This document shows, in pieces, positions 47,005 to 55,482 of a stretch of 64,000 nucleotides of DNA. Position 1 is the first letter of the stretch; every line of letters starts with the position of its first letter. The translations under genes and the position numbers were made by a program. This DNA comes from SAR202 cluster bacterium (GTDB lineage Bacteria; Chloroflexota; Dehalococcoidia; Lucifugimonadales; UBA2962): contig JAKUTS010000009.1 in the NCBI GenBank assembly GCA_022447925.1, positions 1 through 64,000 on the forward strand, given 5' to 3'. The notes under the pieces were generated by a model. It worked only from the letters and a program-made list of their open reading frames with translations, was not told the DNA's origin and did no database searches.

Positions 47005-50000
47005 CTATTTGGCCTTAATTGTTACTTGGCTACTGCCCGCATGAATAAGATCAAATGTGACTCCATCATTGCCATTAGAACTTGGTACCTGTATCCCATC
47101 TACTAATACTTCCAACTGTCCAGAAAGGAGAGTGTTTGGTATTGATACCGTGGTGGATGAGTTAGTTCCCTTAGGGCCACCGGCCATAAAGCTGAGTTCT
47201 TTGGAATTTGTGTTAAATGTCATTTCAAATATATGGGACTGTGAAGTCACTTCTATGCTCTCCACTCTGCCGTCAACTTTTATCGCAAATTCATAAACTA
47301 GACTAATTAGAGGAGTTAAAATTGCTCTGTACAGTAGGCGCTCCGAGTTTTTATCCCTGTCATTTCTGGAAGTTTTAACCGCAACAAAAATTACCTTTCC
47401 AGTTGAATCAATTTCAAGAGTTCGGTCTTGTGCAAATGTGCCTCCGTACTCGGAATGTCCCGTTTGCGTACGATCCAAAAGTAATTTTCCGAACAATTTT
47501 TCTTGAGCGGAAAGTGGCTTGGATGAAGGCTCAAGTAAAGGTAATCCTAAGTTTACAGAGTACCAATTTTTACCAGCATTTTGTGTTCTGTATATATCGT
47601 CTGCGGTTATTGCATAAAGAACATTTGGGTTAATCGGATCAATAGCCATGTCAATTACTGCGCCCTTGGGTATACCTGTTGAGGACTTATCCCATTTTTG
47701 ACCTCCATTAGCCGATTTATATATACCACTTTCTGTGGCCGCATACAGTATTTCAGGGTCGATTGGGTCCATTTGTAGATCGTTTGTAAATTCATCTAGG
47801 CCGTCATTAATTTCAAACCAAGACTCTGCGCCATTAGTTGTTTTATATATACCTATAGCGGTTGTGGTTTCATGAAGGCTTGTCATCGCATAGGCAATGT
47901 CAGGGTTTGTTGGATGTACAATTATGGAGTTAATTGATGTCTTTGTTTCAATAGGAAATCCATTAGACATTTCTTTAAAGGATTTACCTGCATCCGATGA
48001 TTTAAATATATGCGCTCCATCAAGATTGAAAGTCAAGTCAGGATATACCGAATCGTGTACTGAACCTACATATATAACGTCTGAATTACTTGGTGCTACA
48101 GCTACTCCGTGCAAGTGGAAATCAGCGGCGCCTTCCAGGCGCAATCCTAAGTTGTAAGTTTCCTCACTTAGTCCAGCTTCAATTTCGTGAGTCAATACAT
48201 ACCAGCTTGCACCGAAATCCGTACTGGCAGTTAACTCTCCGGTTCGTAGCCATCCTGTGGTATAGATCACATATGGAAAATCATATGTGAAGGCATATAC
48301 CATTGGATAATGAGAGGTGATTGATGGGGAAAACCACCAACTGTCTCCAGCATCAGGGGAAAAGAAATTGCCTCGTCCAGACTCACCTCCGACCCAGAGA
48401 TTGAATGGGACAATTGGATGATTTCCCATTTGTGCTATCTTCGCTTCGTATATACCCTTGTCACTTCTATACCAAGTTTTTCCACCATCTATACTTTTGT
48501 ATAAGCCTTCCCCTTTATGCATTCCTCTATTCTTGTGTTTGGGATGTGTTGTATATACTTCAGTGGCAGTGCCAATGAAAACGATATTTTCATCAGTTGG
48601 ATCAATTGCTACAGGCGTTAGGAATTTGTATGCCAATCCTTCACTTATATCGGTCCAGGATTTGCCTGAATCATTGCTTCTAAAAATTCCATCATGACTA
48701 GTTACATAAGCAACATTGCCATTGCTAGGTGCGAAATGAACGTGGTGTAACTTGAGAGAATTTAGTCCGTTGTTAATTCTTTCCCAGGTTAATCCACCGT
48801 CAGAACTACGGAACATTCCTTCGTTTGTTGAAGCAGCCAATATGATGTTTGGGTTATTCGGGTGAATATCCAGACCCATCACTTTTGGAGGGTTGTTTTC
48901 ATTGAGGTTTTTCTTGCTGTTAGCGACTTCTTCAAGATACGAAATCACGTTGCCGCTCCATGTCACTCCATCATCACGTGTGTATTGGACACCTCCATCC
49001 CCTGCAACCCATATCACTTCAGGGTTATCTGGCATCACAACAATTGCATCGATAGCAGAGCATGTTGAACAGGTGCCTGTCTTGGTCCAAGTTTTGCCAG
49101 AATCTATGCTTTTATATAGATCAGAAGGTTCAGCTGGCCATATATCTCCTCGTGTATCGCCAGACTGAAGAGCGGCAGCATATACGATATTAGGCTGCTG
49201 GGAAGAAAATTGTATTGCTGTGAAAGGTATAACATTGCCTTGATCGGCAGTAAAACCAACTACTGATTCCCATGATTCTCCGCCATCAAAGGTGGCTTGG
49301 ACGGACCATTCCAAATTTGTATAAATAGCAATATCTTTATCAACTGGACTTAGTGCTAATGAACCAACGTGGCCTGTCACATGAACTAGGTCCCAATTGG
49401 CACCAGCATCCGTGCTCCGGTACATAGTCATATCATTAGAATCGACACCTGCATACATGATATTTGAATCAACAGGTGAGATTTTGATTTCCACGAATTC
49501 GCCTGCCTGTACGTCTGACACCTTCTCCCACTTTAATTCAGAACATTGTTCTCCTTCATAAATCTGGCAACTATCAAAAGGTTGCTCATATTTAGCGACT
49601 GGTAGGGTTACATTATTTAGGTCAGCAGCGACAACGCCGTTTGGAAGTTGTGCTGGAGGCACGTTACAGTCTGGTGTTTTAGGTAAGCCACTTTCATCTT
49701 TCTGATCTCCGCTGCATTCCCATTCTTCATCGTCGTATCTGCGTTTATCATCATCTTCAGGTCTATCTTCATTGCGACGTCTGTCATCATCTTCAGGTCT
49801 TTCATCACCGGCACGTCTGTCATCATCTTCAGGTCTTTCGTCATTACGCGTTCTATCATCATCCCCACCTCTGTCCTCTTCAAAATCATTTTCCATTTCA
49901 GGCTTGCCGAGCTTACAGTGCTGGATACTCGTGAGTTCTGCTTGATCTATTTTCGCATCAAAATAGACAATATCGTCTGTTCTCGGTCTACCTAAAACTT

Positions 50001-50277
50001 TAATCATACAGTTGGGATCATATGTGCTCTCACTAATTTCTTCAGTCACTTCACTTTGATCAACTGTGTCTATAGGATCTATTTCATTGGAAACAGGAGA
50101 TGCTGTATTTGTCGGTCTTGGAGTTGGATCTGCAGACTGCTGTGCTGTTGCCGTGGGCTCTGTAATTGACTCTATTTGTTCTTTTGGTTGTGTTTCGATT
50201 GCAATCGGTTTAGATTCTGCACAACTTAATGCGAGAATTGACAATATTATTAAGAGTTTAATTAAGAGATTTTTCAC
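47005..50277 (-). CDS. Large BNR/Asp-box repeat lipoprotein
   Basis: A 1090-residue exported protein. A lipoprotein signal ends at Cys19 (LSILALSCAE), and a Pro/Thr-rich spacer follows. Residues about 132-187 are a charged Asp/Glu/Arg repeat. Residues about 240-940 hold some eleven Asp-box motifs of the S-x-D-x-G-x-x-W kind (for example RSSDGGLTWERI, KSIDGGKTWYRS) arranged as one or two beta-propellers of the sortilin/YCF48 type. The last 150 residues form a beta-sandwich-like tail. It starts at a GTG. Asp-box propellers bind or hydrolyse glycans or serve as binding scaffolds; no catalytic set was recognised. Confidence 0.82.
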   Translation of the reverse strand: MKNLLIKLLIILSILALSCAESKPIAIETQPKEQIESITEPTATAQQSADPTPRPTNTASPVSNEIDPIDTVDQSEVTEEISESTYDPNCMIKVLGRPRTDDIVYFDAKIDQAELTSIQHCKLGKPEMENDFEEDRGGDDDRTRNDERPEDDDRRAGDERPEDDDRRRNEDRPEDDDKRRYDDEEWECSGDQKDESGLPKTPDCNVPPAQLPNGVVAADLNNVTLPVAKYEQPFDSCQIYEGEQCSELKWEKVSDVQAGEFVEIKISPVDSNIMYAGVDSNDMTMYRSTDAGANWDLVHVTGHVGSLALSPVDKDIAIYTNLEWSVQATFDGGESWESVVGFTADQGNVIPFTAIQFSSQQPNIVYAAALQSGDTRGDIWPAEPSDLYKSIDSGKTWTKTGTCSTCSAIDAIVVMPDNPEVIWVAGDGGVQYTRDDGVTWSGNVISYLEEVANSKKNLNENNPPKVMGLDIHPNNPNIILAASTNEGMFRSSDGGLTWERINNGLNSLKLHHVHFAPSNGNVAYVTSHDGIFRSNDSGKSWTDISEGLAYKFLTPVAIDPTDENIVFIGTATEVYTTHPKHKNRGMHKGEGLYKSIDGGKTWYRSDKGIYEAKIAQMGNHPIVPFNLWVGGESGRGNFFSPDAGDSWWFSPSITSHYPMVYAFTYDFPYVIYTTGWLRTGELTASTDFGASWYVLTHEIEAGLSEETYNLGLRLEGAADFHLHGVAVAPSNSDVIYVGSVHDSVYPDLTFNLDGAHIFKSSDAGKSFKEMSNGFPIETKTSINSIIVHPTNPDIAYAMTSLHETTTAIGIYKTTNGAESWFEINDGLDEFTNDLQMDPIDPEILYAATESGIYKSANGGQKWDKSSTGIPKGAVIDMAIDPINPNVLYAITADDIYRTQNAGKNWYSVNLGLPLLEPSSKPLSAQEKLFGKLLLDRTQTGHSEYGGTFAQDRTLEIDSTGKVIFVAVKTSRNDRDKNSERLLYRAILTPLISLVYEFAIKVDGRVESIEVTSQSHIFEMTFNTNSKELSFMAGGPKGTNSSTTVSIPNTLLSGQLEVLVDGIQVPSSNGNDGVTFDLIHAGSSQVTIKAK
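49748..49880. repeat. 36-bp in-frame tandem repeat
   Basis: The core TCATCATCTTCAGGTCT recurs at 49748, 49784 and 49820, with a partial copy at 49856, a strict 36-bp period. On the coding (minus) strand each unit encodes 12 residues like R-x-x-x-E/D-R-P-E-D-D-D. The array makes a highly charged linker in the BNR lipoprotein and is a likely length-variable site. Confidence 0.85.
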
Positions 50278-50725: not shown

Positions 50726-51385
50726 TTAATCTACAAGTTTGTTCATCTTATTTTTAGTTAATTCCGTTGTTGGGCCAGAAAAAGAAACACGCCCTTTACT
50801 TAAAACGATCAAACTATCGCTATATTTCCTAGCCATATCAATATCATGAGTTATGACTAATAAGGTTTTGCCCATATCACATATATCTTTGAGCAAAGAA
50901 TAAAATGTTTCTCTAGAATCTGAATCTATGGATGATAATGGTTCGTCCATGATAATTACGTCTTTACCTTGAGCTAGAGCAAAAACCAACCAGGCCCTTT
51001 GTTTTTCGCCGGTTGAGATATCAGTGAAAGATGATTTTGAAATTGATGAAATTCCGCAAGTGTCAAGCAAGCTTTCTAAAACTACATCTTTATCAACTTC
51101 ATTACTATTTTTGTAAAAACCTAGTTTGCATATTTCTTCAACAGTGAGGAATGGAGGATCTTCTATATCTTGGGGCAAATAACAGATTTCAGTGGCATCT
51201 ATATTTGAAATAGTTCCTTGGTAATCTGTGATTTCGCCAACTATAGATTTAACTAAAGTCGATTTACCAGATCCATTTGGTCCAACTAAGCAGGTAAACT
51301 CATCATTGCTAACATTACAAGACACTTTGTCCAAAATCATAGTTTCATTTATCTGTATAGATATCTCTTTTATTTCTATGTTCAT
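50726..51385 (-). CDS. ABC transporter ATPase of a FecCD-type importer
   Basis: The 219-residue ATPase has Walker A GPNGSGKST (about 35-43), a variant signature ISTGEKQRAWLVFALAQ, Walker B VIIMDEPLSSID and the switch His in LLVITHD. It is of the iron-siderophore/cobalamin importer class. It overlaps the permease gene by 4 bp, so ATPase, permease and binding protein form one importer. It is followed directly by the ATL gene. Confidence 0.9.
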   Translation of the reverse strand: MNIEIKEISIQINETMILDKVSCNVSNDEFTCLVGPNGSGKSTLVKSIVGEITDYQGTISNIDATEICYLPQDIEDPPFLTVEEICKLGFYKNSNEVDKDVVLESLLDTCGISSISKSSFTDISTGEKQRAWLVFALAQGKDVIIMDEPLSSIDSDSRETFYSLLKDICDMGKTLLVITHDIDMARKYSDSLIVLSKGRVSFSGPTTELTKNKMNKLVD

Positions 51386-52353
51386 CGTATTCTCAAAGCT
51401 AAATACATCATTAGTGGTGCGCCAATTACAGTAGTTGCCATTCCAACTGGTAATTCTGTAGGTGAAAACAGTAACCTTGCGAATTGGTCAGACAGCATTG
51501 TCAGTATTCCGCCTGTTATTATCGACCCGATAAATAATTGGACGGGAACATTTCCAAATAAGCGACGGCTAATATGCGGGGAAATCAAGCCAACAAATCC
51601 AATTATCCCACCCCCATACACGGAAGCTGCGGTCAGTATTCCAGCCAGTATCATACTTAATAACCTCAGCCTGTTAGGGTTAACTCCCAAAGATTTGGAT
51701 AGTGTGTCTCCAAGAATAATAGGTTGAAATTGCCTCGATAGTACAAGGGCAATAGTTGAGCAGATGACAAAGGTTATTAGAACGTAATAAAAAATCGTCC
51801 AGTTACTATAAGCAAAAGAACCAGCCACCAATCCAAGTACCTGAATTGAGAAAATACTGCCATGAGAAATTACAGCCGTGCTTATAGCTATTGTTAGAGC
51901 TCCTAATGCTATACCCATGATAGCAAGCCTGGTTGGAGTTAAGTTACGTTCAGAAATTAGCCTCACCAAAATAATAGAAACAAAGATTGAGAAACCGATT
52001 GCACCTATGAAAATAAGAGGTTCCTGAGTTGTTATAAGGCCTGCAGCACTACATGCGAGAAAAATAGCTGCTGCGCCTCCGATACCGAAAAGATTAGGGT
52101 CTCCTAAAGGGCTTCTAGAGGATAGTTGAATAAGTGCTCCAGCTAATCCTAAGCATCCACCAACTATAAAGCTAACAGCTATACGCGGAATCCGAATGTT
52201 CCACATAATAGTGTTAACTACAGTGTCTTCGGATCCAAAAATACCATTTATAGCATCTTTGAACCCGTAATTAGAGGGGCCCAAAAAGAGCCCCGCTAAT
52301 ACTAAAGCAAAAATAATTACGCCTAAGGTTGAATATCTTAGGGCGTAGGTCAT
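51382..52353 (-). CDS. FecCD-family ABC permease
   Basis: The 323-residue permease has about ten helices with BtuC/FecCD marks: IRIPRIAVSFIVGGCLGLAGALIQ, RSPLGDPNLFGIGGAA, LGVNPNRLRLLSMIL and IGFVGLISPHISRRLFG, the last being the ATPase-contact loop. Members carry iron-siderophores, haem or vitamin B12. The gap to the binding-protein gene is 1 bp. Confidence 0.92.
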   Translation of the reverse strand: MTYALRYSTLGVIIFALVLAGLFLGPSNYGFKDAINGIFGSEDTVVNTIMWNIRIPRIAVSFIVGGCLGLAGALIQLSSRSPLGDPNLFGIGGAAAIFLACSAAGLITTQEPLIFIGAIGFSIFVSIILVRLISERNLTPTRLAIMGIALGALTIAISTAVISHGSIFSIQVLGLVAGSFAYSNWTIFYYVLITFVICSTIALVLSRQFQPIILGDTLSKSLGVNPNRLRLLSMILAGILTAASVYGGGIIGFVGLISPHISRRLFGNVPVQLFIGSIITGGILTMLSDQFARLLFSPTELPVGMATTVIGAPLMMYLALRIR

Positions 52354-52354
52354 G

Positions 52355-53446
52355 TTATTGCATGGAATCCAAAGCCGACTTTAGAAATTCAACTGCTTCG
52401 ACTATACGTGGTCCTGGAGCTTGTAGAAATAGATCTACATCTGCTTCTATTATGCTGCCAGTTTGTATGGCCTTAAGTCCAGCAAATGGAGGAATCATAG
52501 TTATCAATGACGATAATCTAGGCGCAGGTTCGGGAGCCGGGGTGATAGTTATGATGACATCTGGGTTAGCCATCAAAACTGCCTCTGGACTCATCAGTGC
52601 AAATCCAGGGTATGGCCCTGAGTTTGAAAGGTCTGAAGCCTTGTTTTCCATTCCTATAACTGCAGCAACCAGACCTGTGTATGAGGATGGTAGTGCGGCA
52701 TATAAGTTTTGGTCTGGGTCAGATATTAAGATCAAAACGCTACGGCCGTCATCAGTTCCAGCTGCTGTTAGCCTGTCCTTGATATCCGTAGTAGCTTTAT
52801 TTGCAATTTCTTCTGTGCCGAATATGATGCCGAGATTTGTAATGCCACCCATTACGTCCTCTACACTCTCAGCTTTCACAGCAAACACATTAAGTCCAAC
52901 AGCGCCTAAAATTTCTACAAAACGAGCCTGTGTTATTGCCTCAATTACCACTAGGTCAGGGCGACTGCCGATTATGGTTTCTACAGAGGGATTATACGCA
53001 CTTCCCACGTCAGGTAGTGATAATGCTGCCTCGGGGTGGGTTGATGCACGATCTCTTAAAACAGACTTTCCACCAGAGGCATATACCATTTCTGTTGCGG
53101 TGGGGCTAATAGTTGCCACGTTTGTTGGAATAGACTCAAAAGTAAGCTCTCTTCCTAGGGCATCAATCACAACAATTTTTTCAGATGCTGGTTCAGGTGT
53201 CGGAGTTATGACTACGATTTTTTCCGTCTCTACTTCGACTACCTTTTCAACTTCTACAATTACTTCTTTCTCAACAACCTTTTCAATTTCTACCTCCACC
53301 TCTTTCACTACTTCTTTTGCGACTTCTACAATTTTCTCTTCGATAATTACTTCTGGTTCAACTGAACAAGCCATAGCAAATATTAAAAGAGACATAATGC
53401 AAAAACCGGCGATAAGTAACGGCTTGGAATACATATTTTTGGCCAA
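52355..53446 (-). CDS. ABC substrate-binding lipoprotein with Val/Glu/Lys coil linker
   Basis: A 363-residue lipoprotein (lipobox Cys27 in IFAMACSVE). Residues about 33-80 are an almost pure Val/Glu/Lys segment, predicted to be a long helix or coil spacing the binding domain off the membrane. The rest is a type III cluster A (BtuF/FepB-like) domain: ALGRELTFESIPTNVATISP, DLVVIEAI, SPEAVLMANPDVIITITPAPEPAP. The TTG at 53446 has AAGGAG six bases upstream. Cobalamin or Fe-siderophore is the likely cargo; a cobalamin riboswitch was not found. Confidence 0.9.
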   Translation of the reverse strand: MAKNMYSKPLLIAGFCIMSLLIFAMACSVEPEVIIEEKIVEVAKEVVKEVEVEIEKVVEKEVIVEVEKVVEVETEKIVVITPTPEPASEKIVVIDALGRELTFESIPTNVATISPTATEMVYASGGKSVLRDRASTHPEAALSLPDVGSAYNPSVETIIGSRPDLVVIEAITQARFVEILGAVGLNVFAVKAESVEDVMGGITNLGIIFGTEEIANKATTDIKDRLTAAGTDDGRSVLILISDPDQNLYAALPSSYTGLVAAVIGMENKASDLSNSGPYPGFALMSPEAVLMANPDVIITITPAPEPAPRLSSLITMIPPFAGLKAIQTGSIIEADVDLFLQAPGPRIVEAVEFLKSALDSMQ

Positions 53447-53607: not shown

Positions 53608-53772
53608 CTGCTCTCCATACAACATAATTTATTATATTGTGAAACAATTAACAATGCTTCAAGCAATGTTTTTATTTGTGATATTGAATTAATTCACGAC
53701 TTTAGTTTAAATGGCTCATATCATCAGGTTTGTATATACTGCGAGTGTGAGCAGCAAAATAAGGAGTTAATT

Positions 53773-53850
53773 ATGTCATCAGAAAAGCCAAAATGTGATA
53801 ATCCTAATTGCACATGCGATCCCTGTGAATGCGATCCATGTGAATGTTAA
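53773..53850 (+). CDS. Cys-rich microprotein, metallothionein-like candidate (25 aa)
   Basis: An ATG at 53773 with AAGGAG six bases upstream opens a 25-residue frame ending in TAA. Seven residues are cysteine: after M-S-S-E-K-P-K come CDNPNCTC and then DPCEC twice. The Cys-x-Cys and Cys-x-x-Cys spacing is typical of metal-thiolate peptides and resembles the N-terminal motif of cyanobacterial SmtA metallothionein. It is probably cytoplasmic. The DPCEC pair comes from a 15-bp tandem duplication. The phosphotriesterase-like gene starts 43 bp downstream with its own AAGGAG, so they may form an operon. It is too short for standard gene finders; translation is inferred. Confidence 0.65.
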   Translation: MSSEKPKCDNPNCTCDPCECDPCEC

Positions 53851-53893: not shown

Positions 53894-54952
53894 GTGTCAA
53901 AGTCAGAGAGGACAGGGAAGATACAAACTGTATTAGGATTAATAGAGCCAGATGATCTTGGGGTTACGTTGGCTCATGAGCATTCATTGATTGATATGGA
54001 AATATACCTAAGTATGCCTGAAGAAGCTACTGAGCGCTGGTATGTTGATCAGCCAGTGACCATGGAGATTTTAGGTGGATTAATGAAACGCCTTTTTCAT
54101 AACAAAGATGTTGTGAAATTAATTGACGAAAAGCACCAGGCCGAGGAGTTGTATAAATATTATCTTTCTGGTGGTAATTCTTTAGTAGATACTACTTCAA
54201 TCGGCATTGCTAGAGATCCGTTGGCACTAACCAGAATGTCCAGGGCTACAGGCCTTAATATAGTAATGGGAGCATCATACTATGTTCCGCTTTCTTACAC
54301 TGATGAAATTCACGAAAAATCGGAACAAGATATCACAGATTCGATAATTAAAGATGTAACTGTGGGCGTTAAAGAAACTGGAGTCAAATCAGGTATTATA
54401 GGAGAGATAGGTAATTTTTGGCCGACAAACGAGACTTCGAGAAAGATTCTTAGGGCTTCCGCCCATGCTTCAGTTGAGACTGGTGCGGCAATTTCTATTC
54501 ACCCTGGAGGACATCCAGACGCACTTTTACAACATTTAAATGATGTAATGGAAGCTGGTGCCGATCCAACCCGGGTAATTATGGGACACTTAGACGTATT
54601 TCGTTATTCACCGGAAGTAGTTAAGGAAATTGCTGAAACTGGTGCTACCCTTGAGTTTGATCGTTTTGGCAGTGAAAACACTAACTTTGCAGAAGGTGGC
54701 CTTGATATAGACTTTCCGTCGGACGTGCAGCGTATAGAGCGTATAGAGCAATTAATAGATTGGGGATATGAGGATCAAATTGTTGTTGCCCAAGATGTAT
54801 GTCTTAAAACCGACTTGGTGTCCCATGGTGGGGGAGGCTATGTTCATATTCTTGACAGTATTATTCCACGAATGCGAAGACGTGGATTCTCAAGCGAAAC
54901 TATCGATAAAATTTTGATTGAAAATCCGAAACGGGTATTAACCTTTAAGTAA
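53894..54952 (+). CDS. Phosphotriesterase-family metallohydrolase
   Basis: The 352-residue enzyme has the binuclear-metal ligands of the PTE family in order: His28 and His30 in LAHEH, Glu171 in IIGEIG (the bridging position, Glu where PTE has carboxylated Lys, as in the PHP subgroup), His203 in ISIHPGGH, His232 in IMGHLD and Asp301 in VAQDVCLK. The GTG start has AAGGAG upstream. Natural substrates of this subgroup are often lactones or unknown esters. It lies next to the Cys-rich microprotein. Confidence 0.9.
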   Translation: MSKSERTGKIQTVLGLIEPDDLGVTLAHEHSLIDMEIYLSMPEEATERWYVDQPVTMEILGGLMKRLFHNKDVVKLIDEKHQAEELYKYYLSGGNSLVDTTSIGIARDPLALTRMSRATGLNIVMGASYYVPLSYTDEIHEKSEQDITDSIIKDVTVGVKETGVKSGIIGEIGNFWPTNETSRKILRASAHASVETGAAISIHPGGHPDALLQHLNDVMEAGADPTRVIMGHLDVFRYSPEVVKEIAETGATLEFDRFGSENTNFAEGGLDIDFPSDVQRIERIEQLIDWGYEDQIVVAQDVCLKTDLVSHGGGGYVHILDSIIPRMRRRGFSSETIDKILIENPKRVLTFK

Positions 54953-54975
54953 GGAACCGTTATTTGGAGAGGTGT

Positions 54976-55482
54976 ATGACACCTTTATTTGAAATTATTG
55001 ATGTTGAAATATTGCTTTGCTGGCGACATGAGTCATTGGAATATTGGGGCAATTTTGGCGAGTCTTCGTCAAAAATTGTTTATGGCAGACGGCACAAATC
55101 TAATATTTTTACAGCGGTTAAAAATAAGATCCAATTCGGTACTGCAGAGTTGAATGCAAATTCCAAATCAATTGAATTAGAAGATGAACTGGAAACATGG
55201 TCCAAAATATACCCCGAATGGTTTGACAGGCCTGACTGGGATGACTTGGGAGTGCGAGGAACTATAGACCATAGGATTCAGGCGCTAATTAATAAAGGCT
55301 TTATCGAAAAAGTGCCGAGAGTAATGATGGGGCACAGTAGGGATATGTACAGGATGGATTTAGAAGAACTTACTGTGGCTGAATGGGAAATATTGAATGA
55401 GATAGGCGATCTAGAACCTAAACTTGATTTTTCAGTTCCCAATCTTAATAGATTCAATAAGGCTCTTCGGGTCAAAGATTAA
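54976..55482 (+). CDS. Hypothetical protein
   Basis: A 168-residue soluble protein I do not recognise. It is rich in charged and aromatic residues (RHESLEYWGNFGE, WSKIYPEWFDRPDWDD). A helical region (DHRIQALINKGFIEKVPR then LTVAEWEILNEIG) could be winged-helix-like, but no fold is certain. I chose the ATG at 54976 with GGAGAGG just upstream over a TTG at 54964. It lies 23 bp after the phosphotriesterase gene, so it probably works with it. It ends 10 bp from the convergent SDR gene. Confidence 0.7.
   Translation: MTPLFEIIDVEILLCWRHESLEYWGNFGESSSKIVYGRRHKSNIFTAVKNKIQFGTAELNANSKSIELEDELETWSKIYPEWFDRPDWDDLGVRGTIDHRIQALINKGFIEKVPRVMMGHSRDMYRMDLEELTVAEWEILNEIGDLEPKLDFSVPNLNRFNKALRVKD

Follow-up and report, generated by a model that had tools for sequence, protein, structure and literature searches.

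The window, the whole stretch of DNA that was analyzed, comprises 64,000 nt from a SAR202 cluster bacterium. It contains a very short gene coding for a Cys-rich peptide. This gene and its surroundings are the following:

53711–53740, forward strand: candidate promoter in a conserved block, formed by ATGGCT (53711–53716), an 18-nt spacer and TATACT (53735–53740)
53761–53766, forward strand: Shine-Dalgarno sequence AAGGAG, by direct reading, 6 nt upstream of the ATG
53773–53850, forward strand: Cys-rich microprotein gene with the pattern CX4CXCX2CXCX2CXC, recognized by its translation, its conservation in the genus and the order, and purifying selection
53894–54952, forward strand: PTE-family metallo-hydrolase (PF02126, Pfam E 3.8e-69), 43 nt downstream of the peptide gene
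54964–55482, forward strand: protein of 172 amino acids, function unassigned (no Pfam match above the cut-off), next gene 3' of the PTE gene; a neighbour only, present in the four peptide-bearing loci of the genus
50726–53446, reverse strand: divergent ABC importer, assigned with Pfam, a neighbour only
50726–51385, reverse strand: importer ATPase
51382–52353, reverse strand: importer FecCD permease
52355–53446, reverse strand: importer substrate-binding protein (PF01497), the closest divergent gene to the peptide

The translation of the ORF is MSSEKPKCDNPNCTCDPCECDPCEC, followed by a stop codon. Seven of its 25 amino acids are Cys, three CXC motifs and a tandem DPCEC are present, and Phe, Trp, Tyr and His do not appear at all. 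The original prediction, which was made from the sequence of the window, had described the seven Cys residues, the two DPCEC units and the AAGGAG ribosome-binding site, and all of them are borne out. It had also stated that standard gene finding would miss this gene: in fact, the peptide is smaller than the cut-off of ordinary gene finders. The AAGGAG sequence is also found before the ORF in two other genomes of the genus (G002 and G004), a third one (G003) has GTGAGG instead. ORFs with at least seven Cys in their last 25 residues do not appear in 60 simulated windows of the same dinucleotide make-up, the real window has two. The second one, near position 50055, has eight Cys and lies antisense within the 47005–50277 frame. 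Since this chance-like ORF is also Cys-rich, the number of Cys residues alone is weak evidence for a gene.

Comparison within the genus is more informative. The peptide frame is kept in four of its five genomes. When the 18-codon cores are compared in pairs, they show 4–7 synonymous codon differences and only 0–1 non-synonymous ones, with a dN of 0–0.05 and a dS of about 0.7 or more where it may be computed. The synonymous changes include TGT/TGC swaps in the Cys codons. Codon changes are almost exclusively synonymous, therefore selection acts on the peptide, and we infer from this pattern that it is translated in the cell. The search for the same frame in related genomes and for substitutions which preserve Cys had been proposed as a check: both the frame and its Cys codons are conserved among the carriers of the genus. 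The microprotein is a real, conserved gene. The suggestion of a metal-thiolate type of microprotein, with a length below that of the bacterial metallothioneins known so far, gains support, as its Cys residues are kept under selection.

The block aatggct...tttgtatatact, which includes the candidate promoter, is conserved in three of the four genus members, while G004 has tttggatatact; the surrounding intergenic DNA has diverged. The remaining genome, G001, lacks the peptide and retains gggatatactg upstream of its PTE gene. A consensus scanner made no call at 53711–53740. Between the peptide and PTE genes no terminator-like site was found, and both genes are probably co-transcribed. RNA folding is unremarkable (z -0.68).

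In the order as a whole, carriers are found in 20 of 250 genomes, distributed among six genera (g1, g17, g19, g44, g46 and g51); the members in the order were chosen from the matches by reading their translations. All carrier assemblies in the order are small, 0.9–1.9 Mb. Small SAR202 genomes are known to come from streamlined lineages which inhabit the sunlit ocean (PMC11994032). The peptide is missing in the other 230 genomes, so it must be considered dispensable.

All these peptides share a core, C-x-N-x2-C-x-C-x2-C-x-C-[D/N]-P-C-x-C. The window peptide has the spacing of the seven Cys, the Asn at position 3 and the D/N-P before Cys 6. The seven Cys are invariant across 23 aligned family members. 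A looser pattern was used with translated public collections: among the matches listed, the full motif is found in 26 of 118 genome loci and in 53 of 120 viral loci. The scan patterns left core position 3 unspecified. Nevertheless, Asn is found at this position in 37 of 37 viral ORFs, 15 of 16 in the order and 10 of 13 other short ORFs among the matches listed. As this Asn was not demanded by the search, its conservation indicates that these peptides form a family, and that their Cys pattern is not due to chance. Stand-alone cellular relatives are found in archaea (L087, L089 and L098), Verrucomicrobiota (L100), Flavobacteriales of the Bacteroidota (L114) and gut Clostridia (L084, L113 and L156), and many marine phage contigs also hold relatives. 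In the rest of the phylum, the seven-Cys DNA pattern gave low-complexity or antisense matches and one possible distant member (L337).

The genomic context is not conserved. In the other genera of the order, the neighbours of the peptide are unrelated to each other, and no common neighbour was found outside the genus: reading their sequences suggests a glycerol-phosphate-type dehydrogenase, TypA, a sulfatase, asparagine synthase, and a dihydrodipicolinate-synthase-like gene together with thrS. Beyond Chloroflexota, the neighbours tested with Pfam are MFS/BrnT, UPF0182, archaeal histone/CCA enzyme and Na/Pi transport genes. In three loci from one family of the order (L041–L043), the peptide gene is directly behind a cytochrome c-like gene which resembles ActE of alternative complex III, and both may be translated together.

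Many of the viral contigs (L166–L285, for example L193, L223, L227 and L240) code for short members, MCNNEECKCENCTCDPCECTIDNQCGCDEELVSAI among them, and conserved tails (LVAAI, QVAPV) are frequent at their C-termini. DNA polymerase and endonuclease genes are among the neighbours in two viral loci. The smallest viral ORFs (L196, L210, L271 and L272) have only 14–15 residues and six Cys (MCKCKDCKCNPCKCN), each of them preceded by a ribosome-binding-like site. A contig of a SAR202 MAG also has a phage-type member (L356:9982-10035, contig C40 of G002). It contains small genes, nearly all on one strand, and a PHROG ribonucleotide reductase: it is probably a phage contig binned with its host. A different arrangement is found in Bacteroidales/Prevotella loci (L057, L103 and L062, for example), which code for long proteins where CKCDPCKC-type stretches are repeated. 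A Cys-rich C-terminal tail is found in one of them, which weakly matches the family of the succinate dehydrogenase cytochrome b subunit.

Sequence searches in Pfam, NCBIfam, PHROGs and PDB gave no significant family for the peptide or its relatives. When the family profile is compared with PDB, only two sequences appear, the metallothioneins 1JJD and 1M0J, with non-significant E values of 3.3 and 7.2. A tblastn search of annotated phages and plasmids gave no match, which shows little, since the queries are Cys-rich and the low-complexity filter was on. No description of this family was found in the literature searched, which includes few subscription papers.

The best known bacterial comparison is the PF02069 family. 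These metallothioneins fold as a GATA-type zinc finger and make use of His ligands (PMC10612145). The peptide resembles SmtA, BmtA and PmtA in being small and Cys-rich and in its CXCX2CXC stretch, CTCDPCEC, which may be compared with CACEPCLC in 1JJD. However, it has no His, its 25 residues leave no room for the finger core, and Pfam gives no PF02069 match at E values up to 1. In 247 genomes of the order, no PF02069 match exceeds the cut-off; the control, Synechococcus elongatus, does give one.

Fungal Cu-thioneins also contain CXC motifs, with a Cys spacing which differs from that of the peptide. They are eukaryotic proteins with no detectable homology to it. The similarity is one of size and number of Cys: those from Neurospora crassa and Agaricus bisporus have 26 residues and seven Cys (PMC4755600). 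Judging from these comparisons, the peptide is a member of an undescribed minimal family, not of PF02069, and by its function it would probably count as a metallothionein in the wider sense of the term.

The best independent clue to function is a fusion. In three loci (L068:4733-4990, L090:3154-3414 and L145:3831-4091), CopZ-like HMA proteins end in the Cys core of the family. The fusion protein has 86 amino acids, with an HMA domain (PF00403, E 3.5e-13) and the family core as its C-terminus, CGNPRCTCDDCHCDPCAC. A P1B ATPase gene (PF00122/PF00403), whose end overlaps the fusion gene, is present in all three loci. This ATPase has the marks CPC, N-x6-YN-x4-P and M-x2-SS, which we take to be those of the Cu(I) type. 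The assignment of these loci to alphaproteobacteria rests on L090 and on the near-identity of the three operons. The core motif is the same, but these chaperones combine it with an HMA domain, within a CopA-type operon, while the window peptide stands alone. The hint of copper comes from distant fused relatives, it may not hold for the window peptide.

We consider it likely that the peptide, which is minimal, free-standing and metallothionein-like, buffers a soft metal, either Cu(I) or Zn(II), and does not serve the adjacent PTE specifically. The metal-thiolate reading is suggested by seven thiolates in CXC spacing without His or aromatic residues, and an autonomous job by neighbours which change between genera. 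In the reduced cytosol, the seven thiolates would wrap one small soft-metal cluster, of Cu(I) or Zn(II), and this cluster would buffer the metal. In this genus, the peptide would be the first cistron of an operon with the PTE-family hydrolase. Metal binding, the identity of the metal and buffering are all features that we infer. Several observations count against a metal buffer: no metal-responsive operator was identified for the peptide, the neighbours of stand-alone members are not metal genes, and most genomes of the order do without the peptide. Metal buffering or delivery had been proposed at the outset. General buffering remains the best idea, delivery to the PTE enzyme is unlikely.

Several alternatives have to be weighed. 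The peptide might have a role in sulfur or redox metabolism, as a Cys store or thiol antioxidant, or it might be a small zinc-structured adaptor which binds another macromolecule. Seven thiols would suit such roles, and the members from g51 and from phages have conserved tails past the core, which could be interaction parts. The regular CXC spacing is typical of metal-thiolate clusters and, together with the HMA/CopA association, makes this alternative rather improbable.

A more specific possibility is a dedicated metal store or chaperone for the PTE hydrolase downstream, whose binuclear site it would load. The original prediction placed the peptide between a FecCD-type importer and this enzyme. 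The divergent importer and the PTE-family enzyme downstream on the same strand are indeed present, but the nearest divergent gene codes for the substrate-binding protein and the FecCD permease lies behind it. Within the genus, the expected company is found: the PTE gene follows the peptide in all four carriers, probably co-transcribed with it, and the importer genes are present in three of these four loci. In L033 other genes take their place, so a link between peptide and importer is not upheld. Adjacency to PTE is seen in this genus only, in other genera the peptide lies beside unrelated genes. The PTE family is large here, with 10–14 close paralogues per genome (matches at E up to 1e-60), only one of which has such a partner, so lying next to a single copy proves little.

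A further case is G001, whose PTE orthologue is 89% identical and whose peptide cistron is cleanly absent: leader, Shine-Dalgarno site and start codon pass straight into the PTE frame. In the other genomes of the genus, the sequences around the peptide and PTE start codons are alike. The peptide cistron thus behaves like a removable cassette. The PTE tree is compatible with either its loss in G001 or its never having been acquired. Metal delivery to PTE is therefore very unlikely, given an importer and PTE adjacency which is not conserved, the many paralogues and the peptide-free PTE of G001. On present evidence, PTE is a genus-specific neighbour, not a functional partner of the peptide.

It is equally hard to believe in a Cys-responsive leader peptide, whose Cys codons, as they are translated, would govern the genes that follow. 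Canestrari et al. (2020; doi 10.1111/mmi.14498) reportedly described polycysteine leaders in mycobacteria which control downstream genes in this way. Like them, our ORF is short, Cys-rich and just 5' of an operon, and the direct passage of the G001 leader into PTE might also be expected. Nevertheless, in the mycobacterial case it is the codons that attenuate, while here conservation extends to residues other than Cys, Asn3 and Asp-Pro, in different phyla and in phages. It does not extend to the downstream gene, which differs among genera, so the fixed position which is the hallmark of a leader is not found. Besides, there is no terminator-like site or unusual RNA folding, and in other genomes the core forms the end of an HMA protein. 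Finally, a chance ORF without function has a negligible probability: the ORF is very short and the window has another Cys-rich chance ORF, but the conservation at protein level in four genus members, the codon pattern and a family which spans many genera contradict it.

If the peptide is a soft-metal buffer, as we favour, its carriers may be compared with regard to metal efflux. CopA-like ATPases were found in 186 of 247 genomes of the order. The search took in 247 of the 250 genomes, and all 20 carriers are assumed to be among them. A P1B metal-efflux ATPase is detectable in only one of 20 carriers vs. 185 of 227 non-carriers, and no CopA-like ATPase is found in any of the five genomes of the genus of the window. 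When only genomes up to 1.6 Mb are considered, the figures are one of 19 carriers and 17 of 52 non-carriers (p 0.03; p 0.18 by genus). The association is strong overall, but most of it follows genome size: since the effect weakens in these genomes, genome reduction may explain it. That the peptide stands in for metal efflux could be the case: it is a lead.

In a wider sense, we propose tentatively, and with more doubt than confidence, a metallothionein-like family of 14–40 residues, outside the profile libraries used, common to streamlined ocean bacteria, archaea and marine phages. It might replace efflux ATPases as the main soft-metal defence of streamlined SAR202, while phages might carry it for buffering or capturing the metal of the host they infect. 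If the peptide does bind metal, bacterial metallothioneins can be as short as 21–26 residues, and, as they escape both gene finders and profile libraries, they would be commoner than annotated. The peptide would provide a very cheap way of holding Cu or Zn for streamlined ocean bacteria, 19 of whose 20 carriers have no detectable P1B pump, and metal handling by genes carried by phages would become testable.
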